This document shows, in pieces, positions 18,188 to 26,808 of a stretch of DNA of 30,831 bases. The stretch is taken from IMG/VR virus record IMGVR_UViG_3300009551_000097, positions 1 to 30,831 of that record; one strand, written 5' to 3'. Every line of letters begins with the position of its first letter. Position 1 is the first letter of the stretch. The translations under genes were made by a program, and so were the position numbers. The notes under the pieces are model-generated. The model was not told the origin of the DNA and did not search any database. It worked only from the letters and a program-made list of their open reading frames with translations. Source of the stretch: a virus.

Positions 18188-18215
18188 AAGTCTGATTATT
18201 TTTATTATCAGACTT
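18188..18215 (-). terminator. Hairpin terminator for leftward gene
   Basis: AAGTCTGAT (18188-18196) and ATCAGACTT (18207-18215) form a perfect nine-base stem. On the minus strand it overlaps the stop codon of the gene at 18208 and is followed a few bases later by a T-run. Confidence 0.6.
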
Positions 18216-18462
18216 TTAGTACTAATTTAAAAAATAATCCCAATAAAAAAGCTAAACCACATACTTGCAGCGATACGCCAATTGCCAAAAAAACTGCCCA
18301 CAGGATTTCCATTGTTACTTCCTTGCATTTATAAAGAAATATTTCTCTTTTTTCTGTTTTTGTTAAAGGAGTCCATTCTATCGTCCTATGTATTTCTGGG
18401 GTCGCGACTGTTCCAAATATTGCGTTACGTACATCCGAATCATAATAATTCTTCATATTCAT
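18208..18462 (-). CDS. Small membrane protein with possible internal start
   Basis: This is an 84-residue frame. Residues 1-50 are polar (contains TPLTKTEKREIFLYKCKE) and residues 51-84 form one long hydrophobic segment (MEILWAVFLAIGVSLQVCG, then LAFLLGLFFKL). Met51 at 18312 has a strong AAGGAAGTAAC site just upstream, better than that of the first ATG, so a 34-residue membrane peptide may be made separately or instead. Its size and single hydrophobic helix would fit a small holin-like protein or a superinfection factor, but nothing proves this. Confidence 0.5.
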   Translation of the reverse strand: MNMKNYYDSDVRNAIFGTVATPEIHRTIEWTPLTKTEKREIFLYKCKEVTMEILWAVFLAIGVSLQVCGLAFLLGLFFKLVLKV

Positions 18463-19184: not shown

Positions 19185-19469
19185 TTAAACAATAAGGCCT
19201 ACACAAGTTCCAAGGAGCAGTGATTCCCAGAGGGAGTAATTTATATTTAGTTTATGTGAAAACATGAGAAGCACGGTAACGATTGCAGCAGATCTAAATG
19301 CTGCCTTACATGGCAAATCTAATAAATAATCTAAAAATATACTTGCCCTACTTCTAGATATTATCGCGTGAAGGTTTCCATTAAGGCTCATTTGATATAC
19401 TTCGAGGTGCTTAATGGCCTCTTCTCTTCTCTTGAATGTCTGCCCGCATAAGCAAAAGTGGTTATGCAC
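19185..19469 (-). CDS. Zinc-finger-like N-terminus joined to a membrane segment
   Basis: This is a 94-residue frame starting at GTG 19469. The opening FCLCGQTFKRREEAIKHLE looks like half of a C2H2 finger, though the second His is missing. Residues about 60-94 are hydrophobic, with AAIVTVLLMFSH and LLLGTCVGLIV, and could form one or two membrane spans. It overlaps the upstream gene by 8 bases. Function unknown. Confidence 0.5.
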   Translation of the reverse strand: MHNHFCLCGQTFKRREEAIKHLEVYQMSLNGNLHAIISRSRASIFLDYLLDLPCKAAFRSAAIVTVLLMFSHKLNINYSLWESLLLGTCVGLIV

Positions 19470-19749
19470 TTTCTTTTTTATCCTCTTTGAGTTTTTCCCA
19501 AGCTTCTAAATGTACAGGCAATGACCCGCGCACATTCTTTAAAAAAAGGTCTGTATAATGCAATGATTTAGGAAGGTCTTCACCCATAAAAGCAATGGCT
19601 CTCCCCGCGCAATTAGCCAAAGCATTCAATATACAATTGACCTTATCTTCTGGGCTAACATCAGATTGTTCGTTAAAATTTGCAATAGCAGTTAAAATAG
19701 AATTAGCTAAATTCTTGCTTTCTTCTAGTAATTCTTCATCATTATTCAT
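19462..19749 (-). CDS. Small helical protein, paralogue of 24473-24745
   Basis: This is a 95-residue acidic helical protein with AAAGGAAATAA before ATG 19749. The middle reads SPEDKVNCILNALANCAG, which aligns with TEEDKLNCMLTGIENFLG in the gene at 24473, and both end in a Lys/Glu helix. No domain is known. The two belong to a set of similar-sized helical early proteins in this unit. Confidence 0.55.
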   Translation of the reverse strand: MNNDEELLEESKNLANSILTAIANFNEQSDVSPEDKVNCILNALANCAGRAIAFMGEDLPKSLHYTDLFLKNVRGSLPVHLEAWEKLKEDKKESA

Positions 19750-19761
19750 TTATTTCCTTTT

Positions 19762-19989
19762 TTACATATTTTGGTAAACAATAGACATCTCCATTTCTCT
19801 CAGCGTCTTTAAAATTGATTGGGCAGTTGCTTTAGATAGATGATCGTTATTCATTCTTACCCAGCAACTAGCATTTAATGATTTAGAAATAGCTCCCAAC
19901 AGCAAGCAATCCTCATTTTTGTAATCTTCTTTAATTACGTACTCAATATCAATGATGCCTGTATAATTTTTATCATTATGTGCACTCAT
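19762..19989 (-). CDS. Hypothetical early protein
   Basis: This is a 75-residue protein whose ATG lies in the end of the upstream gene, a 14-base overlap that suggests coupling. It contains GIIDIEYVIKEDYKNED and LLLGAISKSLNAS. No family is recognised. Confidence 0.5.
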   Translation of the reverse strand: MSAHNDKNYTGIIDIEYVIKEDYKNEDCLLLGAISKSLNASCWVRMNNDHLSKATAQSILKTLREMEMSIVYQNM

Positions 19990-20176
19990 TGACTTCCTTT
20001 AGTTCTTCGGATTGCTGGTTGGCAATATCTGAAAGCAATTTAGCCACAAAATCTTTATTGTGGAGTCCGCACCGTGATAATAATTTTTTGTCGAACTGAT
20101 AAAGTGTATCCAAAGCCATTACATACGTTTGCGAAAACTGAATCAATTGCATAATCTGCTTTTCACTGATTTTCAT
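19976..20176 (-). CDS. Small helical protein of the QIMQL/QQS-ELKE type
   Basis: This is a 66-residue protein with AGGTATTAAATA before ATG 20176. It begins MKISEKQIMQLIQF and ends DIANQQSEELKEVNE. The gene at 23357 has the same opening (ISDSQIMQLM) and the same QQSKELKEIN, so the two are paralogues. Similar short proteins are common in environmental phages, with no known role. Confidence 0.6.
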   Translation of the reverse strand: MKISEKQIMQLIQFSQTYVMALDTLYQFDKKLLSRCGLHNKDFVAKLLSDIANQQSEELKEVNECT

Positions 20177-20179
20177 TAT

Positions 20180-20413
20180 TTAATACCTATTTAATTGTAT
20201 TTTTTTACATTTAACACATACATCTAAATCAGCATCAATCTTAGAATCTTGCCAGTCATGCTCGCAATAGTTATCGATCATATCTTGAATTTTATTCATC
20301 AATTCTTTTCTTCGCTCGCTATTACTTTTTCCAAATTTAGGCTCAAGGCATTCCAAGTAATATTCAAAATGCCAATAAATGTCGGAAAGCTCTTCTTTTG
20401 TAAAATCATTCAT
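20180..20413 (-). CDS. Zinc-ribbon array member 6
   Basis: This is a 77-residue protein, the last (downstream) of six tandem paralogues. It begins MNDFTKEELSDIYWHFEYY, followed by KIQDMIDNYCEHDW and VCVKCKK. The NYCEH Cys and His with the final C-x2-C form a plausible zinc site. It overlaps the previous member by ATGA. It shares 26 identical bases with the 20696 member over the NYCEH codons (20256-20281 against 20757-20782). Function unknown. Confidence 0.7.
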   Translation of the reverse strand: MNDFTKEELSDIYWHFEYYLECLEPKFGKSNSERRKELMNKIQDMIDNYCEHDWQDSKIDADLDVCVKCKKIQLNRY

Positions 20414-20691
20414 GAATCAATTTTACCAATCAACTGTTTCAAAAAATCAGCTTGAAATACTCTGTCTTCCCCATTGTGACGAATAACTATATCAATATAG
20501 TTGCAATCGTTAAGAATGGATTTAATTATATTAATTGTGTTTAACTGCAACTCATTCCATTCGTGCGCGCAATAGTTATCTATCAATTTATGAAGCTTTA
20601 ACCATAGCAAAGCTTGTTTAGTTTCTAGGGCTTCTTTTTCGCTTAATAAAGCTAGCAACGTTTCTAAATCTTCTTTCGTGAAATCATTCAT
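20410..20691 (-). CDS. Zinc-ribbon array member 5, C-terminus diverged
   Basis: This is a 93-residue protein. ATG 20691 is chosen because the family opening MNDFTKEDLETLLALL starts there. It keeps LIDNYCAHEWNEL but has lost the final C-x2-C. The C-terminal part is instead IVIRHNGEDRVFQADFLKQ, unlike any other member. It is either a changed or a degenerate paralogue. Confidence 0.65.
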   Translation of the reverse strand: MNDFTKEDLETLLALLSEKEALETKQALLWLKLHKLIDNYCAHEWNELQLNTINIIKSILNDCNYIDIVIRHNGEDRVFQADFLKQLIGKIDS

Positions 20692-20695
20692 ATAA

Positions 20696-20890
20696 TTAAC
20701 CATCATTTTTACCGCATTTATTACAATGACCTTGATCGTGTTGATTGTAAATCCATTCATGCTCGCAATAGTTATCGATCATGGATTCTATTTTTTCTGG
20801 CAACGCTGTTACCGCATTTAGAAATTGTCCTTCGTAATCTTTTACTAGCTGTTTTAGGTACTCTAGTTCTTCTTTCTTGAAGTCATTCAT
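20696..20890 (-). CDS. Zinc-ribbon array member 4
   Basis: This is a 64-residue protein from ATG 20890, opening MNDFKKEELEYLKQL, then SMIDNYCEHEW and CNKCGK at the end. The Cys/His set is complete. It overlaps the preceding member by the eight bases ATGAATGA, an arrangement kept at most junctions of the array. Confidence 0.7.
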   Translation of the reverse strand: MNDFKKEELEYLKQLVKDYEGQFLNAVTALPEKIESMIDNYCEHEWIYNQHDQGHCNKCGKNDG

Positions 20891-21128
20891 AATATTCACC
20901 ACACTTATCACACACCGAGAAGAAAGCATATATTCCCTGATTAATATCGCGCAGCGTAAGTGAATTTGGGTTGGATGTCAGGTGGTCGCAATATATCTCG
21001 ATCATGGATTGGATTTTATTTAATAAAGGCTCCTGAAGCTTCGTTACCCAAGATTGACCAAATTCGGTATACGCTTCACCCCAAGATAAAATATCTTTTA
21101 GCTCTTCTTTGGTGAAACCATTAATCAT
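20883..21128 (-). CDS. Zinc-ribbon array member 3
   Basis: This is an 81-residue protein from ATG 21128, opening MINGFTKEELKDILSWGEA, with KIQSMIEIYCDHLTS and a final CDKCGEYYE. The spacer between the Cys pairs is longer than in its sisters. It overlaps the preceding member by ATGATTAA. Confidence 0.7.
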   Translation of the reverse strand: MINGFTKEELKDILSWGEAYTEFGQSWVTKLQEPLLNKIQSMIEIYCDHLTSNPNSLTLRDINQGIYAFFSVCDKCGEYYE

Positions 21129-21321
21129 GATGATCCCCACATGTTGGACAGGGATTAATGGAATTAATATCCCTAGCTTGTTGGCCATCTGAATAACTAT
21201 CGATCATAGATTGGATTTTTTCTCGCAACGCAATATATCTCGGATAATCACATTGTGGATGGCACCATTGCTCTAAAGCATATAATGTATCGGCTAGCTC
21301 TTCTTTGGTGAAATCAATCAT
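21121..21321 (-). CDS. Zinc-ribbon array member 2
   Basis: This is a 66-residue protein from ATG 21321, opening MIDFTKEELADTLYALEQW, with KIQSMIDSYSDGQQ and a final CPTCGDHHD. The first Cys of NYCEH has become Ser, while CxxC and two more Cys near residue 18 (CHPQC) remain, so metal binding may be rearranged. It overlaps the preceding member by ATGATTGA. Confidence 0.7.
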   Translation of the reverse strand: MIDFTKEELADTLYALEQWCHPQCDYPRYIALREKIQSMIDSYSDGQQARDINSINPCPTCGDHHD

Positions 21322-21460
21322 TATTAAGACTCTTTTCACATTTAGAACAATAAATACTATCCATAGCGCATCCACAGCAACCATTTTCCCATTTGTGATC
21401 GCAATAGCTCTGGCTCATGGATATGATTTTATCTATTTGTTCTTTTGTTAAGTCAGTCAT
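21314..21460 (-). CDS. Zinc-ribbon array member 1 (short)
   Basis: This is a 48-residue protein, short but clearly of the family: MTDLTKEQIDKIISMSQSY, then CDHKWENGCCGCAMDS and YCSKCEK. It has the complete Cys/His set plus an extra CCGC. It lacks the spacer helix of its sisters. It overlaps the preceding gene by ATGACTGA. Confidence 0.7.
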   Translation of the reverse strand: MTDLTKEQIDKIISMSQSYCDHKWENGCCGCAMDSIYCSKCEKSLNND

Positions 21461-21671
21461 TATTTTTCATCCAACCACTTTCTAATAGTGCGCAGTTTTT
21501 GCATATCGCAATAGCAGCATTACCATCTTTCAACCTGAAAATCACTTCCCAATCATGTTTTTCCAGACATTTAGCATGACAATAGTCAGGATTTCTTTCA
21601 ACAAAAGATGGCGGTAAAATCTCTTTCCAGCGCCAGCTACAACCTAAAAACTTAATTACATTATTATTCAT
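21453..21671 (-). CDS. Small Cys-rich protein upstream of the array
   Basis: This is a 72-residue protein with TTAGGTTTATAAC before ATG 21671. It contains DYCHAKCLEKHDWE and AICKNCALLESGW, so two Cys pairs form a likely zinc ribbon. It lacks the FTKEEL opening and is not counted in the array, but DYCH...HDW recalls the NYCEHEW segment. It may be a distant relative. Confidence 0.6.
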   Translation of the reverse strand: MNNNVIKFLGCSWRWKEILPPSFVERNPDYCHAKCLEKHDWEVIFRLKDGNAAIAICKNCALLESGWMKNND

Positions 21672-23356: not shown

Positions 23357-23701
23357 TTATTTCATCTTTTCTCTTAAATATTCAAGCATGTAATCTAATC
23401 CACGCATAAGACCTTGAGCAGCTCCACGACTAAATTCTGTGGATTCTTCAAGGCTATCAATAAACATTTCTATAGACCTGGATTTATTTTCATGTATGTG
23501 ATCATATATTTCTTCTAATAATTCATTATTTGTCATATTTATCTCTTTCAATTCTTTTGATTGCTGAGAAAGAATCTTATTATAAAGATTTATCCTGTCG
23601 CCGTAACACATGCCAAACATGCCTTCTATCTCTATTTTACCCCTGATGCTGTCATACAGTACGGTCATTAATTGCATTATTTGTGAATCACTTATTATCA
23701 T
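23357..23701 (-). CDS. Helical protein, extended paralogue of 19976-20176
   Basis: This is a 114-residue protein with AAAGGGGTGTA before ATG 23701. Residues 1-55 match the 66-residue protein at 19976 (ISDSQIMQLM, LSQQSKELKEIN). Residues 56-114 form an added helical half (LLEEIYDHIHENKSRS, GLMRGLDYMLEYL). Its start overlaps the upstream gene by 14 bases, as does the gene next to the shorter paralogue. It could be a fusion of two neighbouring small genes. Confidence 0.6.
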   Translation of the reverse strand: MIISDSQIMQLMTVLYDSIRGKIEIEGMFGMCYGDRINLYNKILSQQSKELKEINMTNNELLEEIYDHIHENKSRSIEMFIDSLEESTEFSRGAAQGLMRGLDYMLEYLREKMK

Positions 23702-24163: not shown

Positions 24164-24489
24164 TAGTGTGGTTTTTGTCCTTTAGATTCTATTAATTTTG
24201 TATGTATTTCTTTACCTATACAATTTAGATAGGTCTGGATAAATTTTTCGATGTAATCTTCGTCTAAAGATAAGCATATGCGTGTAATGATCTCTCTGTT
24301 GAACATAATCATTACTGACAGTATTAAATCCGTCATCGCTTGTGAGCCTTCTTCTCCCAAGAAAAGATGCTCTTTATTTTTTAGTGGGGCAGAAAATGCA
24401 TCAAATAGACTATTCAAAATCACATTTTTTAATTCTTTCTGTTCTGTGTTGAGGAATCCTCCTCTTTGCACTTCAATGGTTGCAGACAT
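24163..24489 (-). CDS. Hypothetical helical protein
   Basis: This is a 108-residue protein from ATG 24489 (an earlier ATG at 24513 is possible). It begins MSATIEVQRGGFLNTEQKEL and has a long helix with LILSVMIMFNREIITRICL. Codon spacing and overlap (17 bases with the previous gene) fit the block. No family is recognised. Confidence 0.5.
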   Translation of the reverse strand: MSATIEVQRGGFLNTEQKELKNVILNSLFDAFSAPLKNKEHLFLGEEGSQAMTDLILSVMIMFNREIITRICLSLDEDYIEKFIQTYLNCIGKEIHTKLIESKGQKPH

Positions 24490-24745
24490 AAGTATCTTCT
24501 TTTGTTTTTTCATAGAACTTCATAGCGCTATGCATAGTATGAACAAAGGTATTTACAATATCCATTCTGCTGTTTTCATCGCAGTCTAATGATACAAAAA
24601 ACCATCCTAAAAAGTTTTCAATTCCGGTTAACATGCAATTAAGCTTATCTTCTTCTGTAAAATCAGTATTATTTAAGTTTCTAACCTCAAATTTAAGTCT
24701 CTCAAATATAGATACCGCAGCCATCTTGTTTTTTTCATTCCACAT
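24473..24745 (-). CDS. Small helical protein, paralogue of 19462-19749
   Basis: This is a 90-residue protein from ATG 24745; a TTG at 24778, overlapping the previous stop, is an alternative start. The middle TEEDKLNCMLTGIENFLG matches SPEDKVNCILNALANCAG of the gene at 19462. Both then have a helix with a Lys/Glu-rich end. No domain is known. Confidence 0.5.
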   Translation of the reverse strand: MWNEKNKMAAVSIFERLKFEVRNLNNTDFTEEDKLNCMLTGIENFLGWFFVSLDCDENSRMDIVNTFVHTMHSAMKFYEKTKEDTYVCNH

Positions 24746-24774
24746 CGTTCTTTCTAACCCTTTATATTGTTCTA

Positions 24775-25053
24775 TCAAATAGTGTCATTTTTTATTATAT
24801 GACCCAAAAAAACTCTTTCAGACCATACCTGTATTACTTTTTGAACATTCTTAAATATTTTATCGTCTTTTTTTGTACCATCAGGTAATAAATTTGCAAG
24901 AACCCACCCTTGCAGATTTCCAAGGATAAATCCCGCCATCTCTAAATCTTGTTGAGAATTTGAGTCTATATTATTTATACCCTTAAATACCTCGCACAAA
25001 TGAATATAGATTTTATGCGCCTCTCTCGTTTGATCTTCACTTAATTTCTTCAA
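24775..25053 (-). CDS. Hypothetical helical protein, TTG start
   Basis: This is a 92-residue frame starting at TTG 25053 with AAGGGG six bases upstream; no early ATG is available. It contains EDQTREAHKIYIHLCEVFK and AGFILGNLQGWVLANLLP. The size and GFILGNLQGW segment loosely resemble ENFLGWFF in the next gene, so it may belong to the same family. Confidence 0.5.
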   Translation of the reverse strand: MKKLSEDQTREAHKIYIHLCEVFKGINNIDSNSQQDLEMAGFILGNLQGWVLANLLPDGTKKDDKIFKNVQKVIQVWSERVFLGHIIKNDTI

Positions 25054-25525: not shown

Positions 25526-25960
25526 TTAAAACGGAACATCCTCATCAGCTACATTATCTGATAAATTCGCATTTCCTACGTTTTTTACATAATCCTTAAC
25601 AGAGTTCTGGCTTGGATACCTGCCGCCATTTGGGCTTTCCTTTCCTTCTTTAATGACAAGTTCTAAAGACCCGCTTTTATTAATACAGTCTTCAGCTGAC
25701 AATTCACCGCGGTCATACTTCATCATAAGACCCAAATTTGAACAAAAGTGTCTTAACTTGTATGCCATGGCCTCAAGAAGATAATCAAACATGGAATGCG
25801 TAGACCCATCCTTCCCCCAAATAGTCAATGTAAGTTTTATCATATCATTGCCGCTTTTTGACTTTTCATTAGTGGCATTAGTTACCAAAAATGGATATAT
25901 CCCTGGCTCTAGTAAACTAATAGCCTCTAGCTCTTCTTCTGACTTTGGCGTAAATCTCAT
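25526..25960 (-). CDS. Single-strand DNA-binding-like protein (DUF669 type)
   Basis: This is a 144-residue protein. The layout LEPGIYPFLVTNATNEKSKS, then NDMIKLTLTIWGKDG, resembles an OB-like beta-barrel start of the DUF669 family of phage SSB-like proteins. The acidic end DEDVPF recalls the DDDIPF tip through which bacterial SSB recruits partners. The start overlaps the stop of the Sak4-like gene (ATGA), so the two are co-translated. It would coat single-stranded DNA for the recombinase. Confidence 0.75.
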   Translation of the reverse strand: MRFTPKSEEELEAISLLEPGIYPFLVTNATNEKSKSGNDMIKLTLTIWGKDGSTHSMFDYLLEAMAYKLRHFCSNLGLMMKYDRGELSAEDCINKSGSLELVIKEGKESPNGGRYPSQNSVKDYVKNVGNANLSDNVADEDVPF

Positions 25961-26808
25961 GCTGCCTCTCCTTGTATTTTTGATTTAAGAAATTCTATGC
26001 ATTTTTGTATAGCGTCTTTGGGCATTTCCTCCCAACGCTCTGATGAAGATTTATCTAGCCACTTCCTGTATGTTTCTTCTGGAATCTTAAGTAACTCAAT
26101 GAGTCTTACAATCTCTTTTGCGTCTGAATCAGTGGCTAACTCTTGGGCAATAGCATCCCTTTCTAGTACTTTACGGCCGTACTTTTCTGCTATTTCATTG
26201 TAAGAAAATGTAAACTGATCTCCATCGGGTATAGTTTCTATCCTAGACTTTTTAACAACACCCACCCTCGTAGACCCTCTTTTTTGAATTTCAAATACGA
26301 GATCGAACAAGTAATCTAGTTTTTTATAGCAGTCAAATGTTTGACCAAGAACTGCTAAATTCTGCCCGTATTCGTTTTTGGAATGGGAGGTAATTATAAC
26401 GTTCATATCTAGTCTGAAAAGAAGATTGAGCAACTGCTTCATGCGTCTATTAGCCTCTCCATAGTGACGACCAAATTCTGTGCCAACCTTGCGCTCTGCC
26501 TTCTCAAGCAAGTCATTATAAAGAAGTGTTAGTGAATCTATTACGAGAGTTTTGTATTCATGCTGTGTCGTTAAAAGCTCTCTCACTTCGTTTACCATTT
26601 CGTCAAAATCCACGGTCATAAGAACCGCTCCTCCGACTTTTTCTATCTCACGCACATACTGAGTTTTATTAGTAGAACCTTCTGTGTCGATGATATAGGG
26701 CTTAGGAAATTGTATAGCTGCCATCGTTTTACCGACACCAGCATTACCATAAAATAATGCCTTGAGCCGTGATTCGATCATTGCTGGTTTTTTTGCTTTT
26801 AACGCCAT
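25957..26808 (-). CDS. Sak4-like single-strand annealing recombinase (AAA ATPase)
   Basis: This is a 283-residue RecA-core ATPase. Walker A is GNAGVGKT at residues 21-28, Walker B is TLVIDS at 87-92, and a sensor-like NVIITSHSK follows at 136-144. This is the AAA_24 / phage nucleotide-binding family to which Sak4 belongs. Sak4 proteins anneal single strands with help from a partner SSB, and here an SSB-like gene follows with a 4-base overlap. GAGAGG precedes ATG 26808. An unusual leader region stands upstream (26850-26967). Confidence 0.85.
   Translation of the reverse strand: MALKAKKPAMIESRLKALFYGNAGVGKTMAAIQFPKPYIIDTEGSTNKTQYVREIEKVGGAVLMTVDFDEMVNEVRELLTTQHEYKTLVIDSLTLLYNDLLEKAERKVGTEFGRHYGEANRRMKQLLNLLFRLDMNVIITSHSKNEYGQNLAVLGQTFDCYKKLDYLFDLVFEIQKRGSTRVGVVKKSRIETIPDGDQFTFSYNEIAEKYGRKVLERDAIAQELATDSDAKEIVRLIELLKIPEETYRKWLDKSSSERWEEMPKDAIQKCIEFLKSKIQGEAA

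Follow-up and report, generated by a model that had tools for sequence, protein, structure and literature searches.

Independently assorting protein halves between conserved DNA joints in an array of small phage genes

Six neighbouring genes of a phage encode small related proteins whose two variable halves, V1 and V2, assort almost independently between phages. Each gene is laid out as a start block, A (MNDFTKEEL), followed by V1, a central block, B (KIQSMIDNYCEH), and V2, which ends in CxxC. It is highly probable that recombination at these two short intragenic joints reassorts the protein halves of this small-gene array, although the events themselves are read from the comparison of sequences and not directly seen. 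The genes lie in a 30.8-kb IMG/VR virus record, which is called here the window, and relatives are encoded in more than 100 IMG/VR stretches.

The array, its products and its relatives

The six leftward genes (- strand, 20180-21460) form an array of relatives, as the original prediction had stated, and all of them share the FTKEEL start and the KIQSMIDNYCEH core, the final CxxC being present in 5 of 6. When g6 was used as the sole query, the five other window genes were retrieved with E values of 1.3e-7 to 2.5e-4, so that the homology within the array goes beyond chance; a single family profile recovers all six. The four 8-nt overlaps described at or within the array are present at g0/g1 (ATGACTGA), g1/g2 (ATGATTGA), g2/g3 (ATGATTAA) and g3/g4 (ATGAATGA), while g4 and g5 are separated by 4 nt and g5 and g6 overlap by 4 nt. 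The 8-nt overlap is typical of the family: in 80 pairs of adjacent family genes it occurs 29 times, and a 4-nt overlap 34 times (63/80 together). Upstream of the array, g0 (21453-21671, -) has a KCLEKHDW..CKNC end and could be very remotely related to the family; it goes undetected by the family profile.

A full two-module member is represented by g6 (20180-20413, -; 77 aa), whose V1 and V2 are matched in L095 and L104, respectively. Its block A, the 27-nt start joint, occupies 20387-20413 (-), with equivalents on the same strand at 21434-21460, 21295-21321, 21099-21128 (one extra codon), 20864-20890 and 20665-20691. Its block B, of about 39 nt (KIQDMIDNYCEHD), lies at 20255-20293 (-) and has equivalents in g1 to g5. 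The departures from this plan that had been noticed in three members were all recovered. In g1 (21314-21460, -; 48 aa) the spacer, i.e. V1, is missing and block A runs straight into block B. The block-B Cys and His are lost in g2 (21121-21321, -; 66 aa), which carries a LEQWxHPxCDY V1 and a DINSINxC..C..HH V2. In g5 (20410-20691, -; 93 aa), blocks A and B are followed by a non-zinc tail which lacks CxxC and differs from those of the other members; judged by its 46% identity (E 9e-11) to the C-terminal region of a distinct gene in another phage (an L074 ORF), this tail is acquired from elsewhere. Finally, g4 (20696-20890, -; 64 aa) has its V2 in common with L094, and its V1 is without significant match.

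An AlphaFold2 model of g6 (mean pLDDT 87.6) comprises two helices (residues 6-22 and 29-47) followed by a small beta region (54-74); most of the helical region belongs to V1, and V2 forms the zinc-knuckle-like end. C-x-H and CxxC are conserved in the family, and zinc binding is predicted from this pattern. Short strands of a putative zinc ribbon or knuckle appear in the model; no fold match was obtained in Pfam or the PDB, Foldseek returning no PDB structure below E 1 and Pfam no family above cut-off for the array proteins. PHROG searches gave weak matches alone, all of unknown function, and no characterised PHROG. Among the cultured phages of INPHARED, g6 was unmatched and a hand-written family consensus reached a best E of 2; for the head-closure and Sak4 proteins of the window, the closest relatives among cultured phages are no more than about 21-33% identical.

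The merged set of relatives contains 197 distinct members (19,306 pairs), mostly from uncultivated phages. The number of copies per genome, a count suggested with the original prediction, proved variable, from 1 to 7 per record in 44 whole records of 30-41 kb. Relatives of the major head protein of the window were found in 24 of these 44 records, three of these relatives being 90% identical to it and the others 22-76%; the family therefore spans several phage lineages. In a sample fetched with the Sak4 gene, 20 of 81 loci carried members (1 to 6 copies), a lower bound since many of these loci are short. The relatives L086, L087 and L088 come from contigs placed in MAGs of Planctomycetota, Desulfosporosinus and Bacteroidetes; given these conflicting taxa, they are probably mis-binned phage contigs.

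Other small genes of the same phages have related features. A second family of the same design (24 distinct sequences) combines a conserved MxISEKQIMQLI start, a variable middle and a conserved QQSEELKEI end, and occurs in the window at 19976-20176 and 23357-23701 (both -); L066 consists of an array-family front fused to the end of this second family. By eye, a small membrane protein encoded at 18208-18462 (-) resembles proteins of L061 (4753) and L106 (10279), and these relatives start with block A and not with their own N-terminus. Two further ORFs of the window, at 19462-19749 and 24473-24778 (-), resemble by eye distant paralogues with an EDKxNCxL motif. A mobile C-terminal tail, CxHESDG..CxKCGEFYR, ends otherwise unrelated proteins (L053 5216-5542, L055 1541-1825, L043 3875-4417 and L126). 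Array-family fronts were also seen by eye on unrelated ends in L024 (5001-5384), L067 (5229-5564), L125 (around 7160), L268 and L328, one of these ends being like a tail-collar segment and one DUF551-like.

Independence of V1 and V2

In the merged set, V1 is shared in 104 pairs, V2 in 268 and both in 3, where 1.44 pairs would be expected if the halves were independent (P = 0.18 for at least 3). A set of 178 members gave the same picture (V1 shared in 88 pairs, V2 in 203, both in 2), its 178 genes representing 177 distinct V1-V2 combinations. As a control, other homologous small ORFs from the same loci were split at corresponding places. Their left halves were alike in 2369 pairs, their right halves in 2089 and both in 1128, so that both halves went together about half of the time. 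The difference in linkage between family and control, compared conditional on the left half being alike, has a Fisher p of 6e-24, which is indicative only: similarity over the whole protein had served to choose the control pairs beforehand, and these pairs depend on one another.

The module matches extend over 20-40 residues with 60-90% identity in one half, while similarity in the other half is random. The V1 type of g3 (20883-21128, -; 81 aa), NWGExYTEFGxSW, is found in eight genes, in each with a different V2 module. Conversely, the ENxCCxC..IYCxKC type of V2, which the V2 of g1 resembles by eye, is paired with seven different V1 modules in seven genes of other phages. In a sample not chosen by family, L190 combines by eye a V1 of the L197 type with a V2 of the L061 type. 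The L053 and L055 members have V1 and the first part of V2 in common and diverge after the second 'CEH' motif. Between neighbouring genes, V2 of one gene and V1 of the following one were shared in 25 and 8 cases, with 1 case of both, counts that are small.

Blocks A and B as conserved DNA joints

Conservation of the two blocks is evident at the DNA as well as the protein level, and each block is also found joined to unrelated bodies or tails. Identity in the blocks is about 0.8 (A) and 0.7 to 0.77 (B) whether or not the modules are shared, values which are raised because peptides from both blocks were used in part to sample the family. In pairs with a module in common, V1 and V2 are, unlike the blocks, close to saturation at synonymous sites. 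The codons preferred at block positions oppose background usage (TCC 0.74 vs 0.11, AAC 0.77 vs 0.21, ATC 0.55 vs 0.13, ACG 0.58 vs 0.15) and vary between positions for the same residue: an Asn of block A is encoded by AAT at 0.97, the opposite codon to that used for Asn elsewhere in the blocks. This conservation points to continuing homogenisation or to selection on the DNA, with contributions from shared ancestry and sampling bias.

Block A DNA starts 209 distinct genes, of which 27 have no detected block B. Several of these block-A-only bodies have relatives with other starts, as seen for L141 and an L160 ORF (77% identity), and for 16 V2 tails a match exists among ORFs that do not belong to the family. 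Searches with DNA patterns revealed more fusions: 84 stretches for block A, and 17 for block B, the latter all read in frame in family genes. The sequence ATGANTGA starts 80% of family genes, vs 5% of other homologous small genes from the same loci. Of its three reading frames, one contains a start codon and the remaining two contain stops; therefore most cassettes landing beside block A would be cleanly ended and restarted. The conserved Met-Asn-Asp accounts for part of this stop-start property, and the preference at codon 2 for the frame-3 stop is weak (z 2.4) and suggestive. Conservation begins at the ATG, the upstream bases being only weakly biased, and the 13-bp upstream repeat of the mycobacteriophage start-associated sequences (SAS) was not found. 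An inverted repeat in block B (CAATCcatGATTG) was considered and dropped, as it had no compensating changes.

Origin of the array and its likely significance

The members of the array are not recent duplicates of each other. Among 149 same-locus pairs, V1 is shared in 0 and V2 in 2, against 104 and 266 between-locus pairs, and membership of one locus does not make two copies more similar than copies from different phages. For each of the five parsed genes of the window, every best module match sits in another phage, with strong scores for V1 of g3 (103), g2 (79) and g6 (53); the best matches for V1 of g4 and for both modules of g5 are below the significance line. The two modules of g2 match two different phages, V1 reaching its score of 79 with L108 and V2 scoring 59 with L131, and the best scores inside the window are 18 and 35. 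The original reading of the array is supported for true paralogy, variable copy number and diversity that has not decayed, but not for repeated tandem expansion with later divergence. Duplication in tandem inside the genome, with subsequent divergence under selection for diversity, would account for paralogues that lie side by side, keep their ends and vary in copy number, and it may yet apply to a small number of copies, for instance the two L056 genes with a common V2. As the source of the array it is very unlikely in view of the module sharing just described, of block identity that is equal within and between loci, and of module dN/dS values of 0.1-0.3, not above 1. Local gene conversion was likewise dropped, the blocks being equally alike within and between loci.

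The modules are old and under purifying selection. Pooled dN/dS was 0.16 for V1 and 0.10 for V2, rough estimates given a pooled pS near 0.7, and rose to 0.32 and 0.17 in less diverged pairs. Internal stops were found in 2 of about 120 family matches; truncated copies exist and are a minority. Roughly estimated as they are, these ratios speak against neutral decay, in line with what had been expected of the array, and also against diversification by point mutation. Fast point mutation would be needed if the proteins were hypervariable surfaces on a fixed scaffold, the module matches being convergence or residual homology. Structural anchors with variable loops are common in small proteins and the model is plausible as a single domain, but divergence of the gene as a whole would wear down the two halves in step, as it does in the control genes, and not leave 60-90% identity in one half beside a random other half; we regard this explanation as extremely improbable. 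That the combinations are metagenome assembly chimeras formed at the repeated blocks is scarcely credible: all data are metagenome contigs and the blocks are short repeats, but the exact shared runs are typically 9-19 nt and assembly k-mers are usually longer. Moreover, the shared modules are diverged to near synonymous saturation and recur across unrelated samples, in intact reading frames. Finally, the blocks could be kept as regulatory or translational elements, with shuffling incidental. Block A indeed stands at the gene start and precedes unrelated genes, and the SAS of cluster K phages (PMC3203893) offers a precedent. However, block A lies within the coding sequence and encodes a conserved peptide, block B is mid-gene, and the modules that flank B assort independently, so that this is a rather unlikely account.

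Recombination at the two joints, the reading that we prefer, would operate as follows. The proteins of the family would be small phage products, probably made early, and interchangeable halves would be put together to form their genes. V1 and V2 would be swapped when phages or prophages recombine, homologously or homeologously, at the blocks of about 27 and 39 nt. The phage encodes a Sak4-like single-strand annealing protein (25957-26808, -; phrog_124, E 6e-29), a candidate recombinase, beside a single-strand DNA binding protein (25526-25960, -; phrog_378, E 5e-9). This pair would probably assist recombination at the blocks, the case for Sak4 coming from its presence in the window and in the Sak4-anchored loci. 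In lambda, the minimal homology for Red or RecA is about 30 bp, and Red recombination is efficient at 22% divergence (PMC2327257). With 27 and about 39 nt and 18-30% divergence, the blocks are at the edge of this published range. Exact runs shared by random copies have a median of 9 nt (95th percentile 18-19), below the approximately 30 bp usually needed, which counts against recombination at the joints. Exchange between modules may be slow, because module-sharing pairs are mostly old and near synonymous saturation; for the same reason, breakpoints are not placeable to the base.

Lambdoid mosaicism usually exchanges whole genes or blocks of genes. As in that system, short and partly diverged homologies flank the swapped segments, and phage annealing proteins of the Red/Rad52-like kind tolerate divergence (PMC2327257, PMC3945230). 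The array family likewise has swapped segments flanked by short conserved sequence, and a Sak4-like annealing protein is found in the window and in Sak4-anchored loci that carry the family. It differs from lambdoid mosaicism in that the joint is mid-gene, in proteins of about 70 residues, with independent halves and tandem copies. The SAS of cluster K mycobacteriophages stands before unrelated gene families and has a proposed role in translation initiation (PMC3203893). Like block A, it is a DNA repeat at the starts of many small unrelated genes, but it consists of 13 bp upstream of the start codon, whereas block A is a translated sequence that opens with the start codon and is accompanied by a second block in mid-gene. 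Domain-level mosaicism within phage proteins has been surveyed (PMC10684548); receptor-binding proteins, endolysins and replication proteins are highlighted there, whereas the present proteins are small and have fixed joints. The polymorphic toxins (PMC3482391) resemble the family in recombining variable C-terminal modules onto a conserved front; in the array family the front half varies too, and no toxin or delivery family was detected. A diversity-generating retroelement does not fit: no reverse transcriptase was found among the PHROG matches of the 20 larger ORFs scanned, and the variation of the array is module swapping.

The products are tentatively regarded, from sequence features, as putative host-directed binders, for instance inhibitors or proteins of counter-defence or host takeover. 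Host-directed inhibitors would fit because of the variable copy number, the location among many small genes beside replication functions and the combinatorial surfaces; no known anti-defence or metabolic family was matched in Pfam or PHROG. It is possible, if doubtful, that phages keep A and B as selected joints, so that the array would be a dedicated combinatorial generator in which small host-targeting modules are continually recombined, much as in cassette-based variation, and block A would double as a portable stop/start junction.

Tiny phage genes are numerous, obscure in function and fast-changing, and here a mechanism for such turnover is readable from the sequence, as a pattern of fixed joints and free halves with near-complete independence in proteins of about 70 residues. 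This makes it testable whether phages select DNA joints that promote the shuffling of host-interaction proteins. In addition, the V1 x V2 combinations constitute a large natural library for screening against defence systems.
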